Below are positions 3,986 through 21,272 of a stretch of 34,197 nucleotides of DNA, in pieces; the stretch's first letter is position 1, and every line of letters begins with the position of its first letter. This stretch comes from Erysipelotrichaceae bacterium NK3D112 (GTDB lineage: Bacteria; Bacillota_I; Bacilli_A; Erysipelotrichales; Erysipelotrichaceae). Below the pieces are notes generated by a model that made no database searches, had not been told where the DNA came from, and saw only the letters and a program-made list of their open reading frames with translations. A program made the position numbers and the translations under genes. The DNA is taken from the NCBI GenBank assembly GCA_000701725.1, contig JNJQ01000023.1:1-34197 (forward strand), given 5' to 3'.

Positions 3986-5503
3986 TTAATATCCGAAAAC
4001 TGTTTCCGGTCTGATACGGCACGGTGCGCCGTAGCCGGCATCGCATTTTCTGTTGTTGCCCTGCCATCCGGCTCCGAATGCCAGATCGCCGTTCCATGTC
4101 TGGGCGTAACGTGAGAAGTTCGATCCGTCGCCGAGATAGATGATCTCAATATGGCAGTGCGGACCGGAACTGTTGCCGGAAGAGCCGACGTTGCCGATCT
4201 GGGTGCCGGCCGTGATGATGGTGCCGGAAGCGATCGGTGAGCCGAGCATCATATGATATGCCGCTATGCCATAGAGCGAGCCGTTGACCACAACCAGATA
4301 ATGCACCTGGTTGCCCCCGCCATAAGCGCCGCCGAACTGATAGCCGCACATGTTGCCAAGGCCTCCATAGGTGGAACAGCCGTTGGCGGAGCTTAAGACA
4401 ACGCCGCTGCCGACCGCGTAGATCGGAGAGCCGACCGCTGCCGCAAAGTCGTAGCCGAGATGCTCATAGCCGCTGGAATATGCCCATGTGCCGGCAGAAC
4501 GGTAGGAGCCGGGCACCGGGAAGTACCAGCTGGATGAGGAGACAGCGGGAATGTCCTCAAGGTCTCCCGCTGAAGCCAGCGCGATCATGCGGGCCGTGAT
4601 CGAACTGATATCAGCCGCGATCTGGGCACTCGCCGCACGCATTTCCGCTTCCTTCTCAACCGCCGCATCCTGGACGATCTGCACCTGTGCCTGCAGGACG
4701 ATCACATCCTCCTGACGGGCAACCAGGTCATTCTGCTGGATCTGCATCTCATTCTTGGCGATTTCCATCTCCGCCTTGATCGCTTCCATCTGTTTTCTGA
4801 CTTCGATCATTTCGGCTCTGACCGCCTGCAGCTGCTCTTTCTGAACATTGAGCTGATTGATCAGGTCCACGAGCTTTTCCATCGTGGTGCGGTCATATTT
4901 GGCAATCGCGCTGATGCCTGTGATAACTCTCAGGAAGTCCTCAAAGGTGCTTGCCCCGAGCATGATATCCATATATTTGTTGAAACGCATGGAAGACTGG
5001 GCATTGGACATGCGGCTCTTCACTTTGTCCTTGATGGAATCAACTTCCTTCTGGGTGCTGTCAATCTCCGCCTGCTTGGCATCAATTTCCTTCTGTTTGT
5101 TGTCGATCTCGATCTGCTTGTTGTCAATCTCAACCTGCTTGGCATCAATCTCCGCCTGCTTGGCATCGATTTCAGCCTGCTTGCTGTTGATCTGCACCTG
5201 CAGATCATCAATCTGTGTCTGATAGCCCGAAATCTGGGCCGCGTATGTTTCCAGATCCGCCTTGATGGCAGCTCTCTGGCTTTCAATCTCATCGAGTCTT
5301 GATTCCAGTGATGAGCGCTGGGAATTGACATATTCCGCATATGCGTTGCATGCCGCTCTGTCTCCGGAAGCCACCTGGCCGGTGCACTTCTCCTCCCAGT
5401 AATCCGTATCGCTGTAATCAGGCTCTGCCTGAACCGGGAACACTGCCGCGATATTGGCAACGGTGATGCATGCGGCTGCCGTCACAGCCATTAACCGCTT
5501 CAT
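3986..5503 (-). CDS. Secreted M23-family murein hydrolase-like protein with a long coiled coil (PcsB/EnvC-like partner of FtsEX)
   Basis: 505 aa. A signal peptide (cut near AxA 'VQAEP') is followed by a long coiled coil (about 60-310) and a C-terminal LytM/M23 domain with its metal ligands: His348 and Asp352 in 'HLGYDF' and His449/His451 in 'GPHCHIE'. It should therefore be an active Zn endopeptidase on peptidoglycan cross-links, unlike EnvC, which has lost its ligands. Several Cys are found on the exported part, including a pair near residues 40-53. The start is ATG 5503 (GAGGTGG upstream), which forms an ATGA overlap with the ftsX stop; a GTG at 5512 is the alternative. The ftsE-ftsX-hydrolase order matches FtsEX systems where FtsX gates the hydrolase through its coiled coil (known for PcsB and EnvC; inferred here). 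Confidence 0.9.
   Translation of the reverse strand: MKRLMAVTAAACITVANIAAVFPVQAEPDYSDTDYWEEKCTGQVASGDRAACNAYAEYVNSQRSSLESRLDEIESQRAAIKADLETYAAQISGYQTQIDDLQVQINSKQAEIDAKQAEIDAKQVEIDNKQIEIDNKQKEIDAKQAEIDSTQKEVDSIKDKVKSRMSNAQSSMRFNKYMDIMLGASTFEDFLRVITGISAIAKYDRTTMEKLVDLINQLNVQKEQLQAVRAEMIEVRKQMEAIKAEMEIAKNEMQIQQNDLVARQEDVIVLQAQVQIVQDAAVEKEAEMRAASAQIAADISSITARMIALASAGDLEDIPAVSSSSWYFPVPGSYRSAGTWAYSSGYEHLGYDFAAAVGSPIYAVGSGVVLSSANGCSTYGGLGNMCGYQFGGAYGGGNQVHYLVVVNGSLYGIAAYHMMLGSPIASGTIITAGTQIGNVGSSGNSSGPHCHIEIIYLGDGSNFSRYAQTWNGDLAFGAGWQGNNRKCDAGYGAPCRIRPETVFGY
5036..5191 (-). repeat. 21-bp near-tandem repeats encoding heptads in the coiled coil
   Basis: About seven consecutive 21-nt units encode variants of the heptad IDAKQAE (SKQAE, IDAKQAE, IDAKQVE, IDNKQIE, IDNKQKE, IDAKQAE, IDSTQKE). 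Unit identity at DNA level is high, so unit number could change by slippage or recombination without breaking the frame or the coiled coil. Confidence 0.9.
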
Positions 5504-6396
5504 CTCTTCCACCTCAGATACTTGGTCACGCTCAGCCAGCTGCCGATGAAGCCGACGACAATGCCGATCACGGCGAGGATGCCTGCCACATACAGGGAGA
5601 ACGGGATCGGTTTTTCCAGATTGAACAGTGCCGAGAAGACAATGCCCTGGGTGCGGTTATAGAGCGCCATGTAGCCCCAGACGGTCAAAGCGATGGGAAT
5701 CACGGATCCTAAGAAGCCGATGATCATACCTTCCCAGACAAACGGGGCACGGATGAAGCCGTTGGCCGCGCCGACATTGCGCATGATGGTGATTTCATCC
5801 TGACGTGCGCTGATGGTCAGTTTGATCGTGTTCTGGATCAGGAAGATGGCAAGCAGTGAGAGCGCCGCCACGAAAATCGCGCCGACTCTGCGGATGGTCT
5901 CCATTGCGGAAACCACATCGACGGTGGTCTGTCCGCCATAGTCAACCTTGGAGACACCGTCAATCTCACGGATCTGTGAGGAAATCACCTCAATCATGTC
6001 GCCGTCCTGCACTTCCACATAGAATGCGTCATTCATGGGGTTTTCATCGCCGAACGGTGCCATGACCTCACGCATGGATTCATCGTCATACTGATCCAGA
6101 TAATACTGGAATTCCTCCTCTTTGGAGGAGAAATCGACGTTTTTGACACCTTCGATCTTTTCAATCTGGCTGCGGATTTTCTCCTCGGCCGAACTGTTTT
6201 CATATTTGTCATCCACGATGACCGCGATCTTCATGGAGTACTCAATGCTCTTGGTGAAAATGCGCAGATGCCATGAGAATATCAGGAATATGGAGATGAT
6301 GGTCAGGGTGATCGTCACCGCGATTGCGCTGGAAAGCGCCATTCCCCAGTGTCTGCCGACACCGCGGAATCCTTCTTTGATGGGTCTACTGATCAT
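5500..6396 (-). CDS. ftsX: Cell-division ABC transporter-like permease FtsX
   Basis: FtsX pairs with FtsE at the divisome and uses ATP hydrolysis to activate an extracellular peptidoglycan hydrolase. 298 aa: short cytoplasmic N-terminus, TM1 (about 19-42), an extracellular domain of about 140 residues, then three more TM helices around a cytoplasmic loop with the FtsX-typical 'RQDEITIMRNVGA' coupling segment. The ATG at 6396 lies 11 nt after AAGGAGG and gives the usual FtsX N-terminus '[12 protein letters not shown]'. The ATG at 6405 is only 2 nt from the SD, so is less likely. It overlaps ftsE by 11 nt upstream and the M23 gene by 4 nt downstream (ATGA), so all three are translationally coupled. 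Confidence 0.95.
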   Translation of the reverse strand: MISRPIKEGFRGVGRHWGMALSSAIAVTITLTIISIFLIFSWHLRIFTKSIEYSMKIAVIVDDKYENSSAEEKIRSQIEKIEGVKNVDFSSKEEEFQYYLDQYDDESMREVMAPFGDENPMNDAFYVEVQDGDMIEVISSQIREIDGVSKVDYGGQTTVDVVSAMETIRRVGAIFVAALSLLAIFLIQNTIKLTISARQDEITIMRNVGAANGFIRAPFVWEGMIIGFLGSVIPIALTVWGYMALYNRTQGIVFSALFNLEKPIPFSLYVAGILAVIGIVVGFIGSWLSVTKYLRWKR

Positions 6397-7078
6397 GACG
6401 GACATAACCTCCTTCCGCGAGGTCTGCCACGATATGACCGTGCTCAAGAACAACCGTGCGCTTGCGGTGCTTGTTGACAAGGGTCAGGTCATGGGTGACC
6501 ATCAGGATTGTTGTGCCATAGCGCTTGTTGATTCTCTCAAGCAGCGCCATAATCTCGTCGGATTTGCCCGGGTCAAGGTTGCCGGTGGGCTCATCGGCGA
6601 TCAATACTTTGGGACGGTTGGCAATGGCGCGGGCGATTGCCACACGCTGCTGCTGGCCGCCTGAAAGCTCATGCGGAAAGGCATTTCCCTTTTCGCCCAG
6701 GCCCACAATGCCCATGACTTCCTTGGCTCTTGCCCGTACCTGCGGTTTTTTCATTTTAATGACTTCCAGCGCGTAGGTGATGTTTTCAAACACCGTCTTC
6801 GTCGGAAGCAGTCTGTAGTCCTGGAATACAACGCCGATGTTCCGTCTGTAGACAGGAATCTGCGAGGCTCTCAGGGAGCCGACATCAATGCCGACAACCT
6901 TGACGACGCCTTTGGTCGGGACCTCTTCCCCGTCCAGAAGCTTGATCAGAGTTGACTTGCCGGAGCCGGTCGGGCCGATGATATAGATGAATTCCCCCTG
7001 CTCGACCGAAATATTGATATCATACAGGGCGTTGGTTCCAGTCTTGTATTTCTTGTATACGTGAGTGCATTCAATCAT
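6386..7078 (-). CDS. ftsE: Cell-division ATP-binding protein FtsE
   Basis: 230-aa ABC ATPase that drives FtsX. It shows Walker A 'GPTGSGKST', the Q-loop 'VFQDYRLL', ABC signature 'LSGGQQQR', Walker B '[13 protein letters not shown]' and the switch His in 'VTHD'. Start ATG 7078 is chosen because AAGGAGGG lies 5-6 nt upstream and '[11 protein letters not shown]' is the standard FtsE start; the in-frame ATG at 7099 has no SD. First gene of the leftward ftsE-ftsX-M23 operon. Confidence 0.96.
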
Positions 7079-7134
7079 GGACACCCTCCTTATATGCAAA
7101 TGATGCGCATCCTCTGTCTGAAGATACGCATGGT

Positions 7135-7143
7135 ATTATAACA
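7135..7143 (-). promoter_or_regulatory. Extended -10 promoter of the ftsEX operon
   Basis: On the - strand TGT-TATAAT, a perfect -10 with TG extension and no clear -35. The predicted start is near 7128, giving a leader of about 50 nt. The leader begins with an imperfect hairpin (arms 7123-7131 and 7103-7111, GCGTATC/GATGCGC with one G-U pair) before the SD. The promoter sits between the yitT stop and ftsE, so ftsE need not depend on yitT readthrough. Confidence 0.65.
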
Positions 7144-7161
7144 TAGTCGTCTGAAATCGCC

Positions 7162-8016
7162 TCAGATGTTCGGTGAAGAATAGGTGAATCCTTCCCCGAG
7201 CATGTCAGAGGTGTCGGTGATGATGACAAAGGCATGAGGATCGATCGAACGGATCAGATCGGTCAGCGCAATATACTGTCTTTCCGAAACCACGCAGAGA
7301 ATCATCTTGCGCTCGCTTCCGGTATAGCCGCCCTGGCAGTCAAAGATGGTTGTGCCGCGGTTGATATTTTCCTCAATTCCCTTTTTGATTTCCTGCCAGT
7401 GATCGGAAATGATCTGCACATTCTTGACCCGCACACCGCTGCCCGCTTCCAGAATACGGCGGATCGCAAAGCCGGAGGCCATGACCGAAATCAGTCCGAG
7501 CAGTGCCGCCGAAAGATCATAGGCAATGATGCCGGCCATCACGGTCAGGGCATCGGTGATCATGACAAGGGTTGAAACCTTGATGCCGGTCAGCTTGTGG
7601 ATGATCAGCGGCGGAATATCCATACCGCCGGTGCTGGCGCCGGTTCTCATGACCAGTCCGATTCCCGCTCCGCCAAGCAGGCCCGCATAGAAGGATGCCA
7701 GCAGCGGATCAATGGTCAGATCCACCGGATGGCGTGAGAGGATCGTGGTGAAGACCGGATAGGCCAGTGAGCTGATCAGTGTGTTTCCCGCAAATTCCTT
7801 TCCGAGCACGAAGCTGCCCGCGATGAACAGTCCGATGACTGTCGCGTTGGCAAAGAGCAGTTTGTCAAAGTGAAAAAACGGCTCCAGGGCAACGGCCAGT
7901 CCGGCCACACCGCCGGAAAGAATATTGTAGGGAAGAATAAACATCTCGACCGAGACGGCCAGAATGAATGTTCCCGCAAGGGTAAGAAGAAGATCTGTAA
8001 TTGTTTTGCGCATCAT
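7162..8016 (-). CDS. YitT-family membrane protein (DUF161/DUF2179)
   Basis: 284 aa. About five or six hydrophobic helices (roughly 1-190), including the family's 'PYNILSGGVAGLA' and 'GGMDIPPLI' segments, precede a soluble DUF2179 domain (about 200-280) with 'RGTTIFDCQGGYTGSERKMILCVV'-type sequence. The family's transport function is unproven, so none is assigned. Two ATGs in tandem (8016 and 8013) cannot be told apart by an SD because none is present; the -10 box at 8021-8026 puts the mRNA 5' end at about 8014, so a leaderless mRNA starting at the second ATG is plausible. Same strand as ftsE, but that gene has its own promoter. Confidence 0.88.
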   Translation of the reverse strand: MMRKTITDLLLTLAGTFILAVSVEMFILPYNILSGGVAGLAVALEPFFHFDKLLFANATVIGLFIAGSFVLGKEFAGNTLISSLAYPVFTTILSRHPVDLTIDPLLASFYAGLLGGAGIGLVMRTGASTGGMDIPPLIIHKLTGIKVSTLVMITDALTVMAGIIAYDLSAALLGLISVMASGFAIRRILEAGSGVRVKNVQIISDHWQEIKKGIEENINRGTTIFDCQGGYTGSERKMILCVVSERQYIALTDLIRSIDPHAFVIITDTSDMLGEGFTYSSPNI

Positions 8017-8020
8017 TAAG

Positions 8021-8029
8021 ATTATAGCA
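8021..8029 (-). promoter_or_regulatory. Extended -10 promoter directly before yitT (leaderless arrangement)
   Basis: TGC-TATAAT on the - strand, 4 nt from the first ATG and 7 nt from the second. There is no Shine-Dalgarno between. The -35 is poor, as usual for extended -10 promoters. Confidence 0.6.
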
Positions 8030-8112
8030 TATGGATGACATTATAAACTTTATGAAATCAGACCCGGAATCATTCTTAAGAAAAGATTGAATGAAGCCGG
8101 AGATCATATAAA

Positions 8113-8556
8113 ATGAAACTCATGAACAAAACCCGTTCCTCAAAACTGATCTGGCTTCTTCCGCTGTTATGGACGGCAGTGATTTTCCTTGCGTCCTTTC
8201 AGAGCGGCGAAGATTCAGGCGCTCTTTCCGGAAACATCACCCGTGCAGTGCTGGATTTTCTTTCTTCTCTCAGCATCCGGTTTTCCTTTGAAACCTTCCA
8301 TCTGCTGATGCGCAAAGCCGCCCATTTCAGCGAATATGCCGTGCTCGGTGTTCTGGTATCAATCGCTCACAGAAAAGCACCGCTTTGGAATCACGGTGCC
8401 TTTGATATCTGTCTCTGGATGATTGTGCCGCTGATTGATGAAAGCATTCAGCACTTTGTGCCCGGCCGCAATGGCGCCCTGTACGATTCGGGTATTGATC
8501 TCTGCGGATTTCTGTGTGCCGTATTGCTGTATCATCTGATCGCGAAACGGAAGTGA
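8113..8556 (+). CDS. VanZ-like family membrane protein
   Basis: 147 aa with about four transmembrane helices. Family landmarks: 'FLASFQSGEDSG' after TM1, 'RKAAHFSEYAVLG' (the conserved H..EY) and 'DESIQHFVPGRNGALYDSGID' (the DExxQxFxPGRxxxxxD motif). VanZ proteins are linked to glycopeptide and lipoglycopeptide tolerance in some species, but most genomic copies have no known role. GGAG at 8099-8102 lies 10 nt before the ATG; a second ATG (8122) is possible. Divergent from yitT. Its stop codon abuts that of ybaK with no gap. Confidence 0.85.
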   Translation: MKLMNKTRSSKLIWLLPLLWTAVIFLASFQSGEDSGALSGNITRAVLDFLSSLSIRFSFETFHLLMRKAAHFSEYAVLGVLVSIAHRKAPLWNHGAFDICLWMIVPLIDESIQHFVPGRNGALYDSGIDLCGFLCAVLLYHLIAKRK

Positions 8557-9042
8557 TCACTCCCTGGCGATGTCGGCGGTAATGCCCTGGATCAGTTCAA
8601 TCAGTTCGGCAGGATTGACTTCCACCTGAACCCCGACGCGTCCGCCGGAAACCATGATTGAATCATAGAGAATGACCGTCTCATCAAAGACGGTTTTAAA
8701 CTGCTTTTTCATGCCCACGGGACTGCAGCCGCCATGGATGTATCCGGTGGTTTTGAGAAGATCCTTCTGGGGAATCATCGCCACCGCTTTCACTCCTGCC
8801 GCCCTGGCTGCCGCCTTGAGATCCAGTTTCATGGCAACCGGAATCACAAAGACATAATGTTCGCCGTCATCCCCTTTTGTGACCAGGGTCTTGTATACCT
8901 GATCGGGATTCTCGCCGCATTTTTTCGCGACGGAAACCCCGTCAATGGCACCGTCATCCGTTTCATAGGTATGTTCCGTATAGGCAATGCCGGCTGTTTC
9001 CAGCATCCGCATCGCGTTTGTTTTCGCTTCTTTTTTTGCCAT
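8557..9042 (-). CDS. ybaK: Cys-tRNA(Pro)/Cys-tRNA(Cys) deacylase, YbaK/EbsC type
   Basis: 160 aa. A trans-editing enzyme that removes wrongly attached Cys from tRNA(Pro). Visible family features: 'NPDQVYKTLVTKG' with the catalytic Lys of the 'KTL' motif, 'LKAAARAAGVKAVAMI', 'TGYIHGGCSPVGMKKQF' (the GGxSPxG loop, here with Cys before Ser) and a C-terminal 'GVQVEVNPAELI'. The start at 9042 follows AAAGG by about 6 nt; the longer frame to 9072 runs into the terminator hairpin and is rejected. It lies downstream of trpZ beyond a hairpin, so may be read through from the T-box operon. Confidence 0.93.
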   Translation of the reverse strand: MAKKEAKTNAMRMLETAGIAYTEHTYETDDGAIDGVSVAKKCGENPDQVYKTLVTKGDDGEHYVFVIPVAMKLDLKAAARAAGVKAVAMIPQKDLLKTTGYIHGGCSPVGMKKQFKTVFDETVILYDSIMVSGGRVGVQVEVNPAELIELIQGITADIARE

Positions 9043-9055
9043 AATATGCCTTTCA

Positions 9056-9081
9056 TTCAAAATCCCGGACATGCCGGGATT
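9056..9081 (-). terminator. Terminator between trpZ and ybaK
   Basis: AATCCCGG, CATGT loop, CCGGGATT then TTG on the - strand: a perfect 8-bp stem with a short T-run, starting about 5 nt after the trpZ stop. It closes the T-box operon, probably incompletely. Confidence 0.75.
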
Positions 9082-9085
9082 CTTT

Positions 9086-9889
9086 TCAGTGATCGGAAAG
9101 CAGGATGCGGTCGTCGTCGAGCTCCTCTTTCGCCCCTTCGCGGAACCGTTTCAGCAGTTCCTCCATGGTGAGACTTTCCCGCTCCTCACCTTTCAGGTCA
9201 AGGATAATACGGCCGTCCGCCATCATCAAGGTGCGGTTTCCGGTTTTCAGGGCCTGGTGCAGGTTGTGGGTGATCATCAGACAGGTGGTGTGATTGGCTT
9301 TGACGATCTCATCGGTCAGCTTCATGATCTTCTCAGCCGCGGCCGGATCAAGGGCTGCGGTGTGTTCGTCCAAAAGAAGCAGCTTCGGCGGAACGATGGT
9401 CGCCATCAATAATGTCAGCGCCTGTCTCTGTCCGCCCGAGAGTGTTCCCACCTGGGTGTTCATTCTGTCCTCAAGTCCCATTTCCAGCAGTCTCAGCTTT
9501 TCTTTGAACATCTCATGATCTTTCTTTGAGATGCGGCTGAAGGAATCGGTGGAATGACCAGCTCTGAGATAGGCAAGAGCGAGGTTCTCCTCGATCGTCA
9601 TGTGCGGCGCGGTTCCTTTCAGGGGATCCTGGAACAGTCTGCCGATGTATTTGGACCGTCTGTAATCGGGAAGGAATGTGATATTCTCCCCGTCCAGGAT
9701 AATCTTTCCCTCATCAGCGAGAAACACGCCCGCGATGGCATTGAACAAAGTGGATTTGCCGGCTCCGTTGGAACCGAGAATGGTGATGAAATCCCCGTCA
9801 TTGACAACCAGGTTCATATGGGAGATTGCCTTCTTCTCATTGATTGTGCCGGGATTGAACACCTTTGAAAGATTCTGGATTTCCAGCAT
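9086..9889 (-). CDS. trpZ: ABC transporter ATP-binding protein of a TrpXYZ-type (tryptophan) importer
   Basis: 267 aa ABC ATPase of the group that pairs with TrpX/TrpY-like components. Walker A 'GSNGAGKST', signature 'LSGGQRQAL', Walker B 'LLLLDEHTAALDP' (His where Pro is commoner, typical of this branch) and switch 'MITHN'. The start at ATG 9889 lies 1 nt after the TGA of the permease gene (TGATATG); AAAGGAGAG is 11-12 nt upstream. The long frame to 9931 lies inside the permease gene and is rejected. The substrate is inferred from the Trp T-box upstream. Confidence 0.88.
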   Translation of the reverse strand: MLEIQNLSKVFNPGTINEKKAISHMNLVVNDGDFITILGSNGAGKSTLFNAIAGVFLADEGKIILDGENITFLPDYRRSKYIGRLFQDPLKGTAPHMTIEENLALAYLRAGHSTDSFSRISKKDHEMFKEKLRLLEMGLEDRMNTQVGTLSGGQRQALTLLMATIVPPKLLLLDEHTAALDPAAAEKIMKLTDEIVKANHTTCLMITHNLHQALKTGNRTLMMADGRIILDLKGEERESLTMEELLKRFREGAKEELDDDRILLSDH

Positions 9890-11882: not shown

Positions 11883-11910
11883 AAAAAGCGCCTGTCCGTA
11901 AAGGACAGGC
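11883..11910 (-). terminator. T-box-controlled terminator
   Basis: GCCTGTCC, 5-nt loop TTTAC, GGACAGGC, then GCTTTTTGT on the - strand. A perfect 8-bp stem about 45 nt before the trpX ATG. Confidence 0.92.
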
Positions 11911-12136
11911 ACTGTGCCTGCGGTACCACCTTTTTTGACAGCTCATGCTGTCCTCTCCATGAAAATGCAATCACATTTTCTGCCCTTTAACGCTGGCAAT
12001 GCGTCAATGGATACTCGCCTTTTGCTTTCGCCATGCCCTCATGGGTCCATTTGCATACCGCTTCGCTGCCGGGCTCTCACCTGCCCCGGCTCTCTTTGAG
12101 CCGCCAATATGTTTGATCTCCCAATCACCGGTTTTC
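11883..12136 (-). promoter_or_regulatory. T-box leader, Trp (UGG) specifier, controlling trpXYZ
   Basis: A complete leader on the - strand. Stem I apical part: AGAGAGCC, GGGG, GGTGAGAGCC. Specifier loop: AAA-TGG-ACCC, with codon TGG at 12049-12047. Stem III GACAGC/GCTGTC at 11937-11952. T-box AAGGTGGTACCGC at about 11929-11917. The antiterminator forms from AAGG with CCTT, bulging TGGTACC, over a CAGGC/GCCTG inner stem; it excludes the terminator that follows. The TGGT pairs with a tRNA acceptor end whose discriminator is A (or G by wobble). Uncharged tRNA(Trp) should therefore switch on Trp import. Nothing in 11840-12283 is coding apart from this leader and flanking promoters. Confidence 0.93.
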
Positions 12137-12142
12137 GAGGGA

Positions 12143-12842: not shown

Positions 12843-14258
12843 ATGAATATTTACAATTTATATATTAATGAAGAAGATTATCCGGATCTGAATGCGGATG
12901 CCGCAGTCAGACATCTTTCGGAAGCGATTCAGATCAACACAACCAGTTATATGGATACATCAAAGATTGATTATCAGGCTTTTGATCTGTTCCATGAAAA
13001 AATCAGGCAGTGGTATCCGCACATCATGAAACACGGGGAATACAAGGAGATTGATCACAGTGTGCTGATCCGCATTGAAGGCAGCGATCCCTCCCTGAAG
13101 CCAGCTCTGTTCATGGCCCACCAGGATGTCGTGCCGATTGCGGAAGGAACACTGAACGACTGGATCCATGGACCGTTCAGCGGCGATATCGCCGGCGGAT
13201 ACATCTGGGGCAGAGGCGCCTTTGACATCAAGGAAATGCTCATCGCGGAGCTGGAAAGCCTGGAATATCTGCTCGCGCACGGAAAGCGTTTCAGACGCAC
13301 GCTGTATCTGGCCTTCGGACAGGATGAGGAAGTGATCGGCTCCGGCGCCATCGCCATTGCGAAATACCTCAAAGAACAGGGCGTCGAACTGGAGTTTGTG
13401 CTGGATGAAGGCGGCAGAATCGCGGATGGCGAAGCATATGGCGCTGAAATCGCGGTCGGCTCCATCGGCATGTATGAAAAAGGATACGCTGATCTGAGAC
13501 TGTGTGCGGAATCATACGGCGGACACAGTTCCAATCCTTTCCATGGCACTTCCCTGCAAGCGCTGGCAAAGGCGATCACTGAAATCTGCGATCACCCGCT
13601 GGAAAGCGCGCTTCCTTCGAGCCTCAGGGAAACCCTGCGGATTCTGAAGCCGTATATCAAAAAAGGTCCGCTGAAAGAAATGGTCACGGACATCGATGCC
13701 AATGAGAAACAGATCATTGAATATTATCTGTCTCAGCCGGAACTGAACCCCCAGGTTCATACAACCATTGCCCCGACCATGATCACAAAAGGATCGGATG
13801 CCGGCAATGTCATGCCTCAGCATATGGAGGCGGTCATCAATTTCCGCCTTGCCCCGCAGGATTCAGACGCGAAACTGCTGGAGCACTGCCGCAGACTCGT
13901 CGGTCCGGATATTCAGGCGGACTTCGTTGTCGCCAATGAGGCGTCCAGGGAATCAAGATTCGACACAATCGGATTCCATTGTCTGAACAATGTGCTTAAT
14001 CATTATTTCAGGGATATCGTGTTTGTTCCGTCCGTGAACACCACCTCCACGGATGCCCGCAGCTATGAGGGGATCTGTGAGTGCTGCATGCGCTTTGAGC
14101 CGTTCTTTGAGGATCAGGGGATCCGGGCGAAAGGCGTGCACGGAACCAACGAGCGGATATCCATCCGCGCCTATCTTCAGGGGATCAGAGTGCTGATCCG
14201 CATGATGGACGAAACATGTCAGTCATATGTCTTGATTAAAAAAAACTATTTGGTATAA
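12843..14258 (+). CDS. M20-family metallopeptidase (carboxypeptidase/aminoacylase type)
   Basis: 471 aa di-zinc amidohydrolase. Metal and catalytic motifs in order: 'AHQDVVP' (His93, Asp95), 'WGRGAFDIK' (bridging Asp128), 'GQDEEVIG' (Glu162-Glu163: general base and Zn ligand), 'FVLDEGG' (Asp188) and a C-terminal 'GVHGTNERI' His. A dimerisation lid with 'YGGHSSNPF' lies between. The shape fits the CPS1/PM20D1-like branch of M20, which cleaves peptide or N-acyl-amino-acid bonds. No signal peptide, so cytoplasmic. It leads an operon with an amino-acid ABC importer, which suggests it splits an imported dipeptide or acyl-amino acid (inference). No SD; see promoter. Confidence 0.9.
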   Translation: MNIYNLYINEEDYPDLNADAAVRHLSEAIQINTTSYMDTSKIDYQAFDLFHEKIRQWYPHIMKHGEYKEIDHSVLIRIEGSDPSLKPALFMAHQDVVPIAEGTLNDWIHGPFSGDIAGGYIWGRGAFDIKEMLIAELESLEYLLAHGKRFRRTLYLAFGQDEEVIGSGAIAIAKYLKEQGVELEFVLDEGGRIADGEAYGAEIAVGSIGMYEKGYADLRLCAESYGGHSSNPFHGTSLQALAKAITEICDHPLESALPSSLRETLRILKPYIKKGPLKEMVTDIDANEKQIIEYYLSQPELNPQVHTTIAPTMITKGSDAGNVMPQHMEAVINFRLAPQDSDAKLLEHCRRLVGPDIQADFVVANEASRESRFDTIGFHCLNNVLNHYFRDIVFVPSVNTTSTDARSYEGICECCMRFEPFFEDQGIRAKGVHGTNERISIRAYLQGIRVLIRMMDETCQSYVLIKKNYLV

Positions 14259-14259
14259 A
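14232..14259 (+). promoter_or_regulatory. Possible internal promoter before the amino-acid ABC permease
   Basis: TTGATT (14232-14237), 16-nt spacer, TATAAA (14254-14259), overlapping the M20 stop codon. It could uncouple the transporter from the peptidase. AT-rich context makes chance occurrence possible. Confidence 0.45.
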
Positions 14260-14280
14260 TACGTTTGTCAGGTTAAATAT

Positions 14281-14952
14281 ATGAATGAAAAATTACTGCA
14301 GCTTCTGATCGATTCTTTCTGGAAAATACTGATGGCCGGCATCCGGGTGACCATTCCCCTTGCCGTGCTTTCCTTTATATTCGCACTGCTGATCGCCATT
14401 CTTGTGGCTGTGATTCAGTACGCAAACATCAAGGTACTGAGACCGTTTATCCGTTTCTATATCTGGATTATCCGCGGCACACCGCTGCTTGTGCAGCTGT
14501 ATGTGGTGTTCTACGGTCTGCCTTCCATCGGCATCGTTCTGCCGGCCTTCCCCTCGGCGGTCTTCTGCCTTGCGGTCAATGAAGGCGCCTATATGGCTGA
14601 AAGCATGCGTGCCGCTCTGGAGGCGGTGCCCAAAGGACAGCTGGAAGCGGGCTATTGCGTGGGCATGAGCTACTGGCAGATCATGCGCAGGATCATCCTG
14701 CCCCAGGCATTCCGCACGGCTTTCCCGTCATTGTCAAATTCGTTTATTTCCATGATCAAGAGCACATCCATGGCATCCACGATCACCGTCACCGAAATGC
14801 TCAGACAGACACAGATCATCAACGGCCGTGTCTATCAGTCATTTGCACTGTATATGGAAGTCGGTCTTGTATATCTGATTTTCTGCACCGTTCTGACATG
14901 GCTGCAGAGCTATGGTGAAAAGAAGCTCAGCGCTTACGGAGGCACCAGATGA
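14281..14952 (+). CDS. Polar amino-acid ABC transporter permease (His/Glu/Gln/Arg/cystine family)
   Basis: 223 aa, about five transmembrane helices. It carries the family's 'IRGTPLLVQLYVVFYGLP' segment (8-18 region after TM2) and the EAA loop 'EAVPKGQLEAGYCVGMSYWQ' with 'ILPQAFRTAFPSLSN', which docks on the ATPase. Only one permease gene is present, so the transporter is probably a permease homodimer. A short SD (AGGTT) lies 22 nt after the M20 stop. It overlaps the ATPase gene by ATGA. The exact substrate is not readable; cystine-type (TcyB-like) systems are the closest in feel. Confidence 0.9.
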   Translation: MNEKLLQLLIDSFWKILMAGIRVTIPLAVLSFIFALLIAILVAVIQYANIKVLRPFIRFYIWIIRGTPLLVQLYVVFYGLPSIGIVLPAFPSAVFCLAVNEGAYMAESMRAALEAVPKGQLEAGYCVGMSYWQIMRRIILPQAFRTAFPSLSNSFISMIKSTSMASTITVTEMLRQTQIINGRVYQSFALYMEVGLVYLIFCTVLTWLQSYGEKKLSAYGGTR

Positions 14953-15692
14953 TCGATGTACAGAATGTGACGAAATCATTCGGCAGCTTCGGCGCTTTAC
15001 GCGGTGTGAGCCTGCATGTGGACAAAGGCGATGTGGTTGCCATTCTCGGACCTTCCGGCTCCGGCAAAACCACCCTGCTCAGATGCATCAATTATCTTGA
15101 GATCGCCGATTCGGGAACCATGACATTTGATGATGAGACCTTTGACATGCATGCCATCAGTAAAAAGGATATCAGCCGTCTCAGAAGAAAAACCGCGTTT
15201 GTGTTCCAGAACTACAACCTGTTCCTGAACAAGACGGTTCTGCAGAATGTGACGGAAGGCCTGATCATCGCCCGCAAGGTTCCCAAGGAGACCGCGGAAA
15301 AGAAAGCCATTGCCGCGCTTGAGAAAGTCGGCATGGCGGACAGGCTTGATTCCTTCCCTTCGCAGCTCTCCGGCGGTCAGCAGCAGCGTGTCGCCATCGC
15401 CAGAGCCCTGGCGGCGGATCCCGAGATTATCTACTTTGATGAACCAACCAGTGCGCTCGATCCCGAGCTGATCGGCGAAGTCCTTTCCGTCATGCGTGAT
15501 CTGGCGAAGGAAGGAATGACGATGCTGGTGGTCACCCACGAAATGAATTTTGCCCGCAACGTTTCCAATAAGGTGATCTTTATGGAAAACGGCCAGGTCA
15601 TTGAAGCGGCGGATTCAAAAACATTCTTTGAAAACCCCAAAGAGGAACGTACAAAGCTTTTCATCCAGACAATCCAGTCTGGCCGAGAATAG
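14949..15692 (+). CDS. Polar amino-acid ABC transporter ATP-binding protein
   Basis: 247 aa GlnQ/HisP-like ATPase. Walker A 'GPSGSGKTT', Q-loop 'VFQNYNLF', signature 'LSGGQQQR', Walker B 'IIYFDEPTSALDPE' and switch 'VVTHEM'. GGAGGC lies 6 nt before an ATG that overlaps the permease stop (ATGA), implying coupled translation. A C-terminal 'FFENPKEERTKLFIQTI' tail is typical of the family. Confidence 0.94.
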   Translation: MIDVQNVTKSFGSFGALRGVSLHVDKGDVVAILGPSGSGKTTLLRCINYLEIADSGTMTFDDETFDMHAISKKDISRLRRKTAFVFQNYNLFLNKTVLQNVTEGLIIARKVPKETAEKKAIAALEKVGMADRLDSFPSQLSGGQQQRVAIARALAADPEIIYFDEPTSALDPELIGEVLSVMRDLAKEGMTMLVVTHEMNFARNVSNKVIFMENGQVIEAADSKTFFENPKEERTKLFIQTIQSGRE

Positions 15693-15702
15693 GAGGAAAG
15701 AA

Positions 15703-16521
15703 ATGAAAAAGACAATCAACATGTTCCTGAGCGCAGCCATGGCTTTAAGCCTTGCGGCATGCTCAGGCAATTCACCGGCTCCCGAAGAAACCGCAGAAAC
15801 TGATACAGCTGAAACAAGTGTTCTTGATCAGGTCAAGGAAAGAGGATATCTGATCATCGGAACGGAAGGTGTCTGGTCGCCATGGACATATCATGATGAA
15901 AACACCGATGTGCTGACCGGTTTCGATGTTGAGGTCGGCAAAGAAATCGCAGCCGCGCTCGGCGTTGAGGCACGCTTTGAAGAGACTGACTGGGGAAGCC
16001 TTCTCTCCGGTGTCTCCGCAGGCCGTTTCGACATTATCTGCAACGGTGTCGGATACACGGAAGATCGTGCGGAACAGTATGAATTCTCCGATCCGTATGT
16101 CTACACAAGAAAAGTCCTGATCGTTTCTTCTGAAAACGACTCAATCCATTCATTTGAGGATCTCGCCGGCAAGACAACCGCGAACTCCCCCAACTCAACA
16201 TATGCGACCGTCGCGGAAGAGTATGGCGCCAATGTGGAATACATTGACACATTCGGTGAGACCATCACACTTCTGGAACAGGGAAGAATCGATGCCACCA
16301 TCAATTCCGAAGTTTCCTATCTGGACTACATGAGCCAGCATCCCGAAGCAAAGATCAAGATCGTCGCTGAGAGCGAAGGCGAAGCCGTCTGCTACCCCGT
16401 CAAAAAGGGTGAAACAGAACTGTGCGAAGCCGTCAACAAGGCGCTCGCTGATCTGCGCTCCTCAGGCAGACTGGCAGAGCTGTCCGAACAGTTCTTCGGC
16501 GGAGACATCACAAACAAATAA
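15703..16521 (+). CDS. Polar amino-acid ABC transporter substrate-binding lipoprotein (SBP_bac_3)
   Basis: 272 aa. Lipoprotein signal with lipobox LAAC (Cys at about 18). The mature domain follows SBP family 3: 'GYLIIGTEGVWSPWTYHDE' opening strand, 'LTGFDVEVGKEIAAALG', 'DWGSLLSGVSAGRFDIICNGVG' and 'GRIDATINSEVSYLDYM'. Residues of the amino-acid clamp (an Arg in the first lobe, an Asp in the second) cannot be assigned with certainty, so the ligand remains open. Start 15703 follows AGGAGG; the frame back to 15601 runs inside the ATPase gene. Last gene of the operon. Confidence 0.93.
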   Translation: MKKTINMFLSAAMALSLAACSGNSPAPEETAETDTAETSVLDQVKERGYLIIGTEGVWSPWTYHDENTDVLTGFDVEVGKEIAAALGVEARFEETDWGSLLSGVSAGRFDIICNGVGYTEDRAEQYEFSDPYVYTRKVLIVSSENDSIHSFEDLAGKTTANSPNSTYATVAEEYGANVEYIDTFGETITLLEQGRIDATINSEVSYLDYMSQHPEAKIKIVAESEGEAVCYPVKKGETELCEAVNKALADLRSSGRLAELSEQFFGGDITNK

Positions 16522-16622: not shown

Positions 16623-16901
16623 TCATTTTTCTCTGAGGATATCGTCCTGGAACTCTCTGGAAAGATCCAGCATGTCGGCGTACAGCTTGCGGAAATAGAC
16701 CCGGATATCGTCATCCTGAATCCTGGAGACATTGGTTTCGATGATCTGCTTTTCCCTTGAGGAATCAAGGATGGGAAGTCTGTTTTCAACCTTGTAGTCG
16801 ATGATATCGCGTACCACCTCGAATCGTTTTTCAAATAATTCCGCCAGGCGGGCATCAATCTCATCGATTGCCAGCCTGTCCAGATCCAGCCGTGTTGCCA
16901 T
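16623..16901 (-). CDS. Stand-alone chorismate mutase (type II, AroQ class)
   Basis: 92 aa, all-helical CM_2 domain. It shows the family pattern: 'DEIDARLAELFEKRFEVVRDI' (helix 1 with the Arg of the active site), 'IDYKVENRLPILDSSREK' (the Lys and the D..RE motif) and a final amphipathic helix. It converts chorismate to prephenate for Phe/Tyr synthesis. It is not fused to prephenate dehydratase or DAHP synthase and no aromatic-pathway gene is adjacent. AGGAGG lies 6 nt before the ATG. Divergent from the ATP-grasp gene. Confidence 0.87.
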   Translation of the reverse strand: MATRLDLDRLAIDEIDARLAELFEKRFEVVRDIIDYKVENRLPILDSSREKQIIETNVSRIQDDDIRVYFRKLYADMLDLSREFQDDILREK

Positions 16902-16990: not shown

Positions 16991-16999
16991 TGATAGAAT
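16991..16999 (+). promoter_or_regulatory. Extended -10 promoter of the ATP-grasp/hydrolase operon
   Basis: TGA-TAGAAT; predicted start near 17006, leaving a 25-nt leader with AAAAGGATGG as SD. It shares the intergenic space with the divergent chorismate mutase promoter. Confidence 0.55.
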
Positions 17000-17030
17000 A
17001 ATTTACTATAAAAAAAGGATGGATCTGACC

Positions 17031-18236
17031 ATGGGAAAAAACTTCGTATTTATATCTCCAACCTTCCCGAAGACATATTATCAGTTCCCCAAAGCCTGGA
17101 AAGAACTTGGCGGAACCTCGTTATGCATCGGTGAGGACAGCTGGGAATCCCTTTCCCAGGAAATGAAAGACGCCTGCACGGAATACTACCGTGTCGACTC
17201 CATGATGGATTACGACCAGATGTACAGAGCTGTCGCCTGGTTTGCCCACAAGCACGGTAAGATCGACTGGCTGGAATCCAACAATGAATTCTGGCTAGAA
17301 CAGGACGCAAGACTGCGTACTGACTTCAACATCACATCCGGAGACAACTCCGAGGATGTCATGCGTTTCAAGCGCAAGTCAAACATGAAAGCATACTACC
17401 ACAAGGCGGGTGTCCCGGTGGCCAGATACCACCTGACCACAACCCTTGAGGAAGGCAAGAAATTCGTCAAAGAGGTCGGCTATCCGGTCATCGTCAAACC
17501 GGATGGAGGCGTCGGGGCAAGCGCGACCTGGAAGATTAAAAATGATGAGGAGCTGGCTGATTTCTATACAAAGGATCTGCCCACCCAGTACATCATGGAG
17601 GAATTCGTTCCCGGATATATTGTTTCCTTTGACGGCATCACCGATCAGGACAACAATATCATCTTCAAGACAAGCCACACCTTCCCGGAGCCGATCATGG
17701 ACATCGTCAACTCCAAGGGGGAATGTTACTACTGGAGCGAGAGAGTGATCCCCGAAGACCTCGACAAGGCGGGAACCGCCGTCATCAAGGCCTTCAATAT
17801 CCGCGGCCGTTTCTTCCATACCGAATACTTCCGTCTGTCCGAAGACAAGGAAGGCCTCGGTAAAAAAGGCGATGTCGTCGGCCTTGAAGTCAACATGCGT
17901 CCGCCCGGAGGATATACTCCCGACATGATGAACTTCGCCAACAACATCAATGTCTATGCCATCTATGCGAGAATGGCAATGTACAACAACACCGACTATA
18001 AGACAGACAGACCCTACTCCTGCGTCTATTGCGCAAGAAGAGACGGTCTGGTCTATGAGCACAACGCGGCTTCCGTATTTTCAAGATACGGCAAGAACAT
18101 CTGTATCCATGACCGCATGGCGGAACTGCTCTCCGAAGCGATGGGCAATGAATTCTATGTCGCCCGCTTCAAAACGGATGAGGAATGCCGCGAATTCATT
18201 AAGTTCGTGCTCGAGAAAGCAAAGGATCAGGATTGA
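17031..18236 (+). CDS. ATP-grasp ligase of unknown substrate
   Basis: 401 aa. An N-terminal Rossmann-like preATP-grasp part ('FVFISPTFPKTYYQFPKAW') is followed by an ATP-grasp core: adenine/phosphate-binding 'YPVIVKPDGGVGASATWKI', hinge 'YIMEEFVPG' and Mg-binding 'EYFRL' plus 'GLEVNMRPPGGYTPD', with the E...N pair needed for catalysis. It therefore should activate a carboxylate as acyl phosphate and join it to an amine or thiol. It is not D-Ala-D-Ala ligase, carbamoyl-phosphate synthetase or a purine enzyme by these motifs. ATG 17031 is preferred to 17019, which leaves no room for the SD. The TGATG junction with the next gene indicates coupled translation with the hydrolase. Confidence 0.88.
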   Translation: MGKNFVFISPTFPKTYYQFPKAWKELGGTSLCIGEDSWESLSQEMKDACTEYYRVDSMMDYDQMYRAVAWFAHKHGKIDWLESNNEFWLEQDARLRTDFNITSGDNSEDVMRFKRKSNMKAYYHKAGVPVARYHLTTTLEEGKKFVKEVGYPVIVKPDGGVGASATWKIKNDEELADFYTKDLPTQYIMEEFVPGYIVSFDGITDQDNNIIFKTSHTFPEPIMDIVNSKGECYYWSERVIPEDLDKAGTAVIKAFNIRGRFFHTEYFRLSEDKEGLGKKGDVVGLEVNMRPPGGYTPDMMNFANNINVYAIYARMAMYNNTDYKTDRPYSCVYCARRDGLVYEHNAASVFSRYGKNICIHDRMAELLSEAMGNEFYVARFKTDEECREFIKFVLEKAKDQD

Positions 18237-18994
18237 TGAAAACAGAATACTACAAAGAATACAGCCCGAGCCTTGGCCGGGACATGGAATACAAAGTCTA
18301 CGGACATGCGGGCAGACCGATGCTCGTCTTCCCCTGCCAGGACGGCCGCTTCTTCGACTTCGAGGACAGAGGCATGGTGGAGGTTGCCAGACCGTTCATT
18401 GACGCAGGCAGAATCCAGCTGTTCTGCTGTGATTCCAACGACCAGAATTCCTGGAGCCGTGTCAACGACTGGGACAACCGCGACCGCATCCAGCAGCAGG
18501 AAGCTTATTACCGCTACATCTGCAATGAGCTGTGCCCGCGCATCTTCGATATCAACGCCAATGCCAACGGCGGCAATTATGCCGAAGGCATCCTGACCGC
18601 AGGCTGTTCCATGGGCGGCACACACGCGCTCAACTTCCTGCTCAGAAGACCTGACATCTTCGCCGGCTGCATCGCCATGAGCGGTGCCTACAACGCAAGA
18701 CTGTTCTTCCCGGATTACATGGATGATCTGGTCTATGCCAACTCACCGGTGGATTATATTGAAGGAATGCCCTATGATCACCCCTATGTTGAAATGTACC
18801 GCAACCGCGAAATCATCGTCGTCTGCGGACGGGGTGCCTGGGAACATCCCATGCAGGAGGATTCCGCAAGACTCCAGGAGCTCTTCGGATACAAGAACAT
18901 TCCTGCCCATATCGAATTCTGGGGCAATGACGTGGCGCATGACTGGCCATGGTGGCTCAAGGAATTCCCCTATTATCTCGACTGGGTCTGCTGA
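18236..18994 (+). CDS. Alpha/beta hydrolase of the esterase-D-like family, paired with the ATP-grasp ligase
   Basis: 252 aa. Nucleophile elbow 'AGCSMGGTHALN' (Ser near 123), an early oxyanion strand 'PMLVFPCQDGRFFDF' and a C-terminal 'VAHDWPWW' whose His is the likely catalytic base. An acidic partner is not certain. There is no signal peptide, so it acts in the cytosol. Unusual traits: many aromatic and Cys residues around 'LFCCDSNDQNSWSR', and a Trp-rich C-terminus. ATG 18236 shares its A with the TGA of the ATP-grasp gene (TGATG); a TTG one codon earlier is less likely. A ligase plus a hydrolase made in fixed ratio suggests that one makes and the other matures, proofreads or removes an ester or amide product; this is inference. 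Confidence 0.85.
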   Translation: MKTEYYKEYSPSLGRDMEYKVYGHAGRPMLVFPCQDGRFFDFEDRGMVEVARPFIDAGRIQLFCCDSNDQNSWSRVNDWDNRDRIQQQEAYYRYICNELCPRIFDINANANGGNYAEGILTAGCSMGGTHALNFLLRRPDIFAGCIAMSGAYNARLFFPDYMDDLVYANSPVDYIEGMPYDHPYVEMYRNREIIVVCGRGAWEHPMQEDSARLQELFGYKNIPAHIEFWGNDVAHDWPWWLKEFPYYLDWVC

Positions 18995-19002
18995 AAACAG
19001 CA

Positions 19003-19030
19003 AAAGTCCGCTTCGCGCGGGCTTTTTCTT
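19003..19030 (+). terminator. Terminator of the ATP-grasp/hydrolase operon
   Basis: AGTCCGC, loop TTCGC, GCGGGCT (one G-T pair) followed by TTTTTC. Confidence 0.82.
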
Positions 19031-19083: not shown

Positions 19084-20991
19084 TTATTTTGCGTAGTCAG
19101 CCGCGCTCTGGCCTGCGATGAGACCGAATACGGTGAAGTCCGCAACAGCGTTGCCGCCAAGACGGTTGGAGCCGTGGACACCGCCGGTGACCTCGCCTGC
19201 CGCAAAGAGACCCGGGATCGCCTCGCCTTCAGTGGAGATGACTTCCGCTGCGGAGTTGATCTTCAGACCTCCCATGGTGTGATGAACACCCGGCTGAACG
19301 GTCAGCGCATAAAGTGTGCCTTCAAGCGGATTTGCGAAGGAAGTGCGTCCGAAGTCCGGATCGTTCTTTGCCTCGACATATCCGTTCCATGTGGAGATGG
19401 TTTCCGCAAGAGCAGCCTCATCAACGCCCATTTCCTTTGCCAGCGCCTCAGGGGAATCGCCTGTGACTGTCCAGCCCTTGGAAACATAGCCCTGGATGAC
19501 TGCGGATGCGTCATACATCTTCTGGTCAACAATCAGCCATGCATAGCCGCCTGTCTGATGGTTTTCAGCATCGGATACCTTGTCACGGGTGGAGACTTCG
19601 TCATAGAAACGCTTGCCTTCCGCATTGACCAGGATCGCGCCGTCGCCGCGCAGACCTTCTGTGATCAGGTTTGCGGAACCGTCATCCGCAACGTGCACAG
19701 TCGGATGGAGCTGGATCTGATCCATGTCGACAGTGTCAGCACCGACCGCCTGACCCATCTGGATGCCCTGGCCGAGAATGCCCGGAGCATTGGTTGTGAT
19801 ATAACCGTCAAGAGCCGGATTGAGTTCCTTGATCATGTCATTGTTTGCACCGAAGCCGCCGGTTGCGATGACAACGGACTTCGCGTTGACAGTGACCTTT
19901 TCACCGGAAGCGCCTTCCGCAACAACGCCGCATGCCTTGCCTTCATTCATGAGAATGGTATTGGCGGTTGTGGAGAAGAGAATCTCGATGCCGCGATCAT
20001 TCACATTCTTTTCCAGAATCGGGATCACATATGCGCCGACGGAGACAACCTTGCCCTCGTCGTTGACCGGACGGTGGATACGCTTGACGGAAGCACCGCC
20101 GAATGATGATACATTGTGCAGAGTTGCGCCATGCTCATCCAGCCAGTCGATTGCGTCCGCGGAGTTTTCAGCCAGTGTTTTGACCAGTTCGATATCATTG
20201 AGACCGCTGCCTCCGACCATTGTGTCGAGTTCGAACAGCTCAACGGAATCAAAATAGCCTTCCGGCTTTGCCTGATAGGCAGCCCACTGATCCGCAACGG
20301 TGGCGGCCAGTTCCTTGACAACATCAGCGTTGGCGCCGCTGTAGCTTTCAACTGCCTTCAGTCTTGCCTCAACGCCTGCGTTTTCACCGAATTCATTATC
20401 GTCCTGATAAACAGTCTTGGCAGCATTCATACCGCCGGTGGAACGGACGGAGTTGCCGCCGCTCATGGCTGTGCTTTCGAGAATGACAACACTCTTGCCT
20501 GCATCCGCAGCTGTGATCGCCGCGATCATGCCCGCGCCGCCGGCGCCGACAACAACGACATCAACATCTTTTGTGACATCTTCCGCAGCAGCTGCTTCGC
20601 CGCCTTCCTTCTTCACAAGATCCTCAGGTTTGAGGCCTGCTTCGGACAGCGCGCTCTTTGCGGCTTCGATGATCGCCGTGGAAGTGACTGTCGCACCGGA
20701 AACCATATCAACATCCAGTGAATTGGCAGCCACGATCGCACCCGGCATGGATTCAATCGCCTTGGAACCGATACCGTCGGTTTCACCCGGGCCTTCTGCT
20801 TTGAAGTCAGTGATGACGCTGTCTTCGAGTGTGATGGTGACCTTGACAGGATTGTCAGGTCCGCCCTGACCCGTTGCCTCACCGGAGAATGTTCCGGAGA
20901 CACCGCTTCCGCCGGAAGCTGTGCCTGACTGGCACGCAGCCATGGATAAAGCCATCGCCGCAGCCGCAAGCATACTCATTACTTTTTTCAT
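19084..20991 (-). CDS. Surface flavoprotein reductase: FMN_bind + FAD_binding_2 (fumarate/urocanate reductase-like lipoprotein)
   Basis: 635 aa. Lipobox MAAC (Cys20), then an FMN_bind domain (about 35-120) with the flavinylation motif 'DMVSGATV', where ApbE attaches FMN to Thr101. The FAD_binding_2 domain follows (from about 133): 'VVVVGAGGAGMIAA' dinucleotide fold, 'RFYDEVSTRDKVSDAE' (Arg equivalent to the proton-shuttle Arg of soluble fumarate reductases), 'VHHTMGG' and 'HGSNRLGGNAV'. All active-site elements of the flavocytochrome c fumarate reductase family are present, but the heme domain is not. It should reduce an external electron acceptor (fumarate, urocanate or another enoate) at the cell surface. 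No apbE or membrane electron donor is in the window. AAAGGAAATAACA precedes the ATG. Confidence 0.9.
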   Translation of the reverse strand: MKKVMSMLAAAAMALSMAACQSGTASGGSGVSGTFSGEATGQGGPDNPVKVTITLEDSVITDFKAEGPGETDGIGSKAIESMPGAIVAANSLDVDMVSGATVTSTAIIEAAKSALSEAGLKPEDLVKKEGGEAAAAEDVTKDVDVVVVGAGGAGMIAAITAADAGKSVVILESTAMSGGNSVRSTGGMNAAKTVYQDDNEFGENAGVEARLKAVESYSGANADVVKELAATVADQWAAYQAKPEGYFDSVELFELDTMVGGSGLNDIELVKTLAENSADAIDWLDEHGATLHNVSSFGGASVKRIHRPVNDEGKVVSVGAYVIPILEKNVNDRGIEILFSTTANTILMNEGKACGVVAEGASGEKVTVNAKSVVIATGGFGANNDMIKELNPALDGYITTNAPGILGQGIQMGQAVGADTVDMDQIQLHPTVHVADDGSANLITEGLRGDGAILVNAEGKRFYDEVSTRDKVSDAENHQTGGYAWLIVDQKMYDASAVIQGYVSKGWTVTGDSPEALAKEMGVDEAALAETISTWNGYVEAKNDPDFGRTSFANPLEGTLYALTVQPGVHHTMGGLKINSAAEVISTEGEAIPGLFAAGEVTGGVHGSNRLGGNAVADFTVFGLIAGQSAADYAK

Positions 20992-21173: not shown

Positions 21174-21254
21174 GGGGATATGGTGGAATTGGCAGACACG
21201 TCAGATTTAGGATCTGATGCTTCGCGCGTGCAGGTTCAAGTCCTGTTATCCTCA
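21174..21254 (+). tRNA. tRNA-Leu (anticodon UAG)
   Basis: Acceptor GGGGATA (21174-21180) pairs with TATCCTC (21247-21253), leaving one G-T pair. D arm GTG...CAC around AATTGGCAGA. Anticodon arm TCAGA/TCTGA with loop TTTAGGA, giving anticodon TAG (Leu, CUN). Long type-II variable region TGCTTCGCGCGT, then T arm GCAGG-TTCAAGT-CCTGT. Discriminator A at 21254; CCA is not encoded (CTG follows). The 3' part from the anticodon loop is repeated at 30451, where the acceptor strand TATCCCC would pair perfectly: this copy's 3' half probably came with the inserted element. Confidence 0.95.
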
Positions 21255-21272
21255 CTGAAAAAAATGAGATTC
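21206..21272 (+). repeat. Left attachment repeat (attL-like) inside the intact tRNA-Leu
   Basis: Begins at the anticodon loop with TTTAGGATCTGATGC, includes the T arm block GCGTGCAGGTTCAAG and extends 18 nt past the discriminator (ending TGAGATTC). It matches 30451-30515 except for three substitutions and a 2-nt A-run difference. Confidence 0.85.

Follow-up and report, generated by a model that had tools for sequence, protein, structure and literature searches.

An ATP-grasp ligase and a serine hydrolase encoded side by side in an Erysipelotrichaceae genome almost certainly work in one small pathway, because the pair has been passed on jointly, by inheritance and by transfer, among distant bacteria. 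At a probability of about 60%, we read it as a two-gene metabolic module, at times joined by a second ligase or esterase, that has moved as a unit and in which the ligase forms an amide and the hydrolase acts downstream. The genes lie in a stretch of DNA of 34,197 nucleotides (the window) from a rumen metagenome-assembled genome (MAG) of a Solobacterium-like member of this family. The closest public locus, that of MAG RUG10685, encodes a ligase with 99% identity to that of the window, and most near relatives come from ruminants (rumen and gut).

The ligase gene (positions 17031 to 18236, plus strand; Pfam CPSase_L_D2/GARS_A) encodes a carboxylate-amine ligase of the ATP-grasp type with 401 amino acids. 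There is a second in-frame ATG at position 17019, and the homologues begin at the methionine of the MGKNFVF sequence. The hydrolase gene (18236 to 18994, plus strand), whose start is the ATG at 18236, encodes an esterase-like alpha/beta hydrolase of 252 amino acids (PF00756; Pfam Esterase, E = 1.6e-12). The TGATG overlap reported in the first-pass annotation is found at positions 18234 to 18238 of the plus strand, where the stop codon TGA (18234-18236) and the start codon ATG (18236-18238) have one base in common. When we inspected 65 ligase-to-hydrolase junctions in homologues, stop and start overlapped in 33, mostly by one or four bases (-1 or -4), and the gap did not exceed 30 nt in 59; close spacing is typical, and the TGATG arrangement itself is not universal. 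The same annotation had assigned a common promoter and terminator to both genes, which is borne out by an extended -10 element (TGATAGAAT, a TGnTAnAAT-like box; 16991 to 16999, plus strand) found at the same site in most of 15 loci aligned from the genus, and by an intrinsic terminator with a 10-pair stem followed by a T tail (19002 to 19026, plus strand). A scan with the sigma-70 consensus alone detected neither a promoter nor a match to the -35 region upstream of the ligase gene. The dN/dS values of both genes, determined against five relatives, range from 0.04 to 0.14 and point to strong purifying selection; with such values, the two reading frames are therefore not chance open frames.

Whether the two families co-occur across genomes had been proposed as a check on the pair, and the outcome is clear-cut. 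Among 60 relatives, the ligase is present in 52 and the hydrolase in 53; all 52 ligase-bearing genomes also possess the hydrolase. The two genes are adjacent on one strand in 51 of the 60, and in 15 of the 60 a ligase is found on both sides of the hydrolase. As a second sample, we took 299 genomes of another phylum, that to which a Clostridia MAG belongs. Here, the ligase occurs in 10 genomes, the hydrolase is found in exactly the same 10, and all of these pairs are adjacent and co-directional, with both gene orders represented. By simple counting, the chance of such an overlap is about 1 in 10^18, a figure to be read with the reservation that the genomes are not all independent and that two of the loci are near-identical. 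In one Clostridia-type genome (L192, positions 6218-6953, minus strand), the linked hydrolase is represented by two matches, due to a frameshift or an assembly error.

The order of the genes varies by lineage, with the ligase preceding the hydrolase in some and following it in others. Adjacent pairs are also present on large replicons of Peptoclostridium acidaminophilum, Sinorhizobium sp., and Pararhizobium qamdonense. In the ligase tree, sequences from Clostridia are scattered among those of Erysipelotrichia, supported branches require a minimum of four changes, and the mixed groups recur in the hydrolase tree (L165, L190 and L075; L161, L163, L167 and L195; L168 and L169 near L193 and L194). 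Joint transfer of both genes would be the simplest reading of these congruent trees. The suggestion that ligase and hydrolase form one functional system has thus gained ground: the families co-occur near-perfectly and have kept their adjacency in spite of horizontal transfer and flips in gene order, and the functional link of the pair is far better supported than an annotation made from the letters of the window could know.

The dependence between the two genes is asymmetric. Among 295 genomes of the window's own phylum, the ligase is present in 69 and the hydrolase in 32, and 31 of the latter also possess the ligase. Genomes with the ligase only are accordingly common (38 of 69), and genomes with the hydrolase only are rare (1 of 32). 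In five genomes of two families (f13 and f14) and in two genomes of a third (f1; G285 and G317), the hydrolase gene is located on another contig, apart from that of the ligase. Most of the ligase-only genomes come from one family of small genomes (f8); there, no hydrolase gene neighbors the ligase gene, which is often preceded by the F-ATPase genes. In the ligase-only genomes, too, the ligase has retained its catalytic residues. Since the ligase is often found alone and the hydrolase almost never, it is probably the hydrolase that depends on the ligase and not the reverse, and the same distribution indicates that the hydrolase probably acts on the product of the ligase or on a derivative thereof. 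Of the biosynthetic and editing roles suggested in the first-pass annotation, this skew favors neither, so that a small biosynthetic system would be a tentative label. About half of the ligase-bearing genomes in this wider sample are without a close homologue of the hydrolase, which is therefore not essential to the role of the ligase.

The AlphaFold2 model of the ligase is confident (pLDDT 89), and among solved structures it comes closest to those of the L-amino acid ligases BL00235 (PDB 3VOT; Z 31.4, 3.8 Å over 357 residues) and RizA (PDB 4WD3; Z 30.6). Matches to L-amino acid ligases, a group that includes BacD/YwfE, extend over the whole length of the fold (357 to 363 residues) and lie about 3 Z units above that to PurK (27.9), the next family. 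RizA is likewise the first match of a profile built from 27 relatives (E = 5e-14, residues 49-309). Identity to RizA and BL00235 amounts to just 15-20%, and with PurK, PurT and biotin carboxylase matching at Z 24-28, the substrates need therefore not be amino acids.

Eight residues of the ligase (K116, K156, H263, E265, E286, N288, R290 and G293) are invariant in 108 sequences. The codon of the ATP-binding Lys156 (17496-17498, plus strand) aligns with the VKP motif of RizA. The region of the metal ligands and catalytic residues (17823 to 17900, plus strand) comprises the codons for E265 (17823-17825), E286 (17886-17888), N288 (17892-17894) and R290 (17898-17900), and E265, E286 and R290 align with identical residues of RizA. 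The ATP-binding lysine, the metal-ligand glutamates and the conserved arginine of the E-x-x-x-R motif are thus held in common with RizA and BL00235, whereas N288 is replaced by an alanine in RizA. The three-domain ATP-grasp fold, the ATP/Mg residues and the catalytic arginine are those expected of L-amino acid ligases (EC 6.3.2.28/6.3.2.49 type); to say that the enzyme may work like an L-amino acid ligase is a safer claim than membership in this class.

Positions that shape the pocket for the C-terminal substrate of RizA are known from mutants (PMC9321006). In the ligases studied here, the equivalent positions are near-fixed, with W88 always and N85 and A163 nearly always present, and this applies to hydrolase-linked, unlinked and duplicate copies alike. 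In RizA, the pocket carries T81, K83 and S84, as opposed to N85, an aromatic residue at position 87, and W88 in the ligase of the window. This pattern suggests that the family has one conserved acceptor site that differs from that of RizA. A comparison of linked and unlinked ligases revealed no specificity-determining positions at 85% conservation, and there is therefore no evidence of a difference in substrate between them. The first-pass annotation had stated that neither protein matches a known pathway. This holds in so far as no NCBIfam cut-off was reached, the ligase giving matches far below the cut-offs to mixed families in a library that may hold no model for L-amino acid ligases; it does not hold in so far as the ligase has a recognizable closest relative in these enzymes. 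They differ from the window's ligase in that the latter is paired with a serine hydrolase and is not part of a recognized antibiotic cluster.

The hydrolase belongs to PF00756 (48.2 bits versus a cut-off of 22) and possesses the conserved S125 and H235. Its nucleophile Ser125 (GCSMGG; 18608-18610, plus strand) is invariant in linked homologues; the putative acid Glu203 and His235 of the HDWPWW motif (region 18842 to 18940, plus strand; codons 18842-18844 and 18938-18940) are present in 98% and 100% of them, respectively. The claim that both proteins keep their catalytic motifs is thus upheld. By analogy with Ag85, a Ser-Glu-His triad with Glu203 as the acid is likely. The confident AlphaFold2 model (pLDDT 93) gave tied matches at Z 20-23 to CE1 feruloyl esterases, FrmB/FphF, esterase D and Ag85, and a profile search yielded no solved relative at a threshold of 1e-5; the fold of the hydrolase does therefore not tell its substrate. 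While it has the alpha/beta hydrolase fold, the GxSxG nucleophile and the HxWxxW histidine motif in common with FrmB/FphF, CE1 enzymes and Ag85, it differs from them by an identity of 13-20% and by its genetic tie to an ATP-grasp ligase. An assignment as S-formylglutathione hydrolase (FrmB/esterase D) is not borne out by NCBIfam model TIGR02821, for which the score is 13.2 bits versus a cut-off of 281.7, and the fold match to FrmB is tied with those to CE1 and Ag85. No signal peptide is apparent at the N-terminus as judged by eye rather than by a predictor, and on this ground a secreted carbohydrate esterase was rejected.

In the mechanism that we propose, the ligase would use Mg-ATP to convert the carboxylate of an amino acid or a similar acid into an acyl phosphate, which would then be coupled to a second amine to give a dipeptide-like amide; the fold, the nearest relatives and the conserved catalytic residues make this the most likely reaction. 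The acyl-amine bond envisaged earlier is accordingly favored by the closeness to L-amino acid ligases, whereas the ester bond named alongside it finds no support. The co-translated, cytosolic serine hydrolase would act afterwards, in tailoring or turnover, and would cut an ester, thioester or amide bond in the ligase product or a derivative. This downstream position and the type of bond are deductions that we set beside the observed fold, nucleophile, histidine and near-strict dependence on the ligase in the sampled genomes.

A second PF00756 esterase is the sole neighbor that recurs beside the pair across lineages, and homologues of it are present elsewhere in the window's genome. Six loci (L060, L062, L066, L069, L144 and L159) carry ligase-hydrolase-ligase triplets, in which the two ligases are strongly divergent and both possess the catalytic residues. 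They recall PnaB/PnaC of the phosphonoalamide pathway, in which two L-amino-acid-ligase-type ATP-grasp enzymes are encoded per locus (PMC11867202), and differ from it by the position of a hydrolase between the ligases; the surroundings of the pair showed no phosphonate genes. It is speculation that the triplets might carry out one ligation after the other, in the manner of peptide pathways with two ligases (PMC11867202). Three genomes of one genus have a third copy of each gene, which is part of a tight run encoding GshA, an EgtC-like class-II amidotransferase, the ligase and the hydrolase (L138, positions 5252-9200, minus strand, with equivalents in L139 and L207; the ligase of L138 is broken by a stop codon), and this run fits peptide-like amide chemistry. 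Locus L219 (4085-7491, plus strand) encodes a 714-amino-acid protein that combines an EgtC-like amidotransferase domain with a part of about 470 residues without a Pfam match; a GshA-like gene comes after it.

The neighbors of the pair otherwise vary between lineages, and a fixed wider gene cluster was rejected for this reason. Divergent from the ligase gene lies that for a monofunctional AroQ-type chorismate mutase (16626-16901, minus strand). Further upstream, an M20 peptidase gene is followed by those for a polar amino-acid ABC transporter (permease, ATPase and binding protein; 12843-16521, plus strand), and other loci of the genus likewise have parts of this run upstream of the pair. The window also contains a T-box leader (11898-12137, minus strand; Rfam RF00230, 94.7 bits) upstream of a minus-strand gene for a 340-amino-acid protein, a flavocytochrome-c-type FAD reductase gene (19084-20991, minus strand) whose product has an N-terminal FMN-binding domain and a lipoprotein-like N-terminus, and a tRNA-Leu gene (21174-21255, plus strand). 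An anti-phage defense system was rejected, as PADLOC gave no match for either protein at E <= 0.01, and so was a phage origin, in view of weak PHROG matches.

Tight coupling and a hydrolase dependent on the ligase would also be features of a synthetase/hydrolase counter-pair, in which the hydrolase cleaves the very bond that the ligase makes, either in a storable or regulated conjugate or in the editing of wrong products; a single hydrolase common to two divergent ligases, as found in the 15 relatives mentioned above, speaks for it too. The ligase should make an amide, however, whereas PF00756 enzymes are mostly esterases or thioesterases, and many lineages are without the hydrolase, so that we consider such an arrangement unlikely. 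Neighbors with independent functions that are held together by operon inertia are extremely improbable: bacterial operons can hold unrelated genes and ligase-only lineages exist, but inertia would hardly explain why the genes co-occur perfectly in scattered genomes, appear in both orders and were transferred congruently.

The run that contains the third copy, and the presence of FrmB/S-formylglutathione hydrolases in the fold group of the hydrolase, could be taken to indicate a pathway for a low-molecular-weight thiol, with a GshB-like extension of gamma-glutamyl-cysteine by the ligase and with the hydrolase as an FrmB-like S-acyl- or S-formyl-thiol hydrolase. The third copy is a divergent paralogue, though, and GshA, EgtC-like or GCS2-type partners are present in 2-6 of the 60 relatives versus 52 for the pair. 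The window's genome (96% complete) yielded no match to queries of these three types, and a glutathione-type pathway was rejected for the window copy on this genome content, a partner glutamate-cysteine ligase being found for the third copy only, for which such a pathway is retained as a lead; the thiol pathway appears improbable overall. An aromatic, chorismate-derived product, as made with BacD in bacilysin, would suit the chorismate mutase gene, which lies close to the pair in the majority of same-genus loci and in a small number of further genera of the family, as well as the two DAHP synthases that flank the pair in Peptoclostridium. The mutase forms a separate, divergent transcription unit, however, other tailoring genes are lacking, and no chorismate mutase gene was found near the pair in Clostridia or alphaproteobacterial loci, and we regard an aromatic product as likewise improbable.

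The module of an amide-forming ligase and a downstream hydrolase hence remains our preferred reading. Both enzymes fall within known folds and known kinds of reactions; it is their conserved pairing that appears to be undescribed. We found no curated family for the pair and no report on it, a statement that applies to the libraries searched and does not establish its absence from the literature. A broader interpretation, which we put forward tentatively as a possibility, is that of an undescribed, horizontally mobile dipeptide-like (amide) metabolism, in which an L-amino-acid-ligase-type enzyme of fixed specificity and its dependent hydrolase would make and process a small molecule common among gut Erysipelotrichales. 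If correct, our reading would extend the few characterized L-amino acid ligases by a new specificity, and since merely two or three genes are needed, the pathway would be easy to reconstitute in vitro and to probe by metabolomics. The Erysipelotrichales of gut and rumen, scattered Clostridia, and rhizobia would then have in common an unrecognized two- or three-gene pathway for a small molecule.
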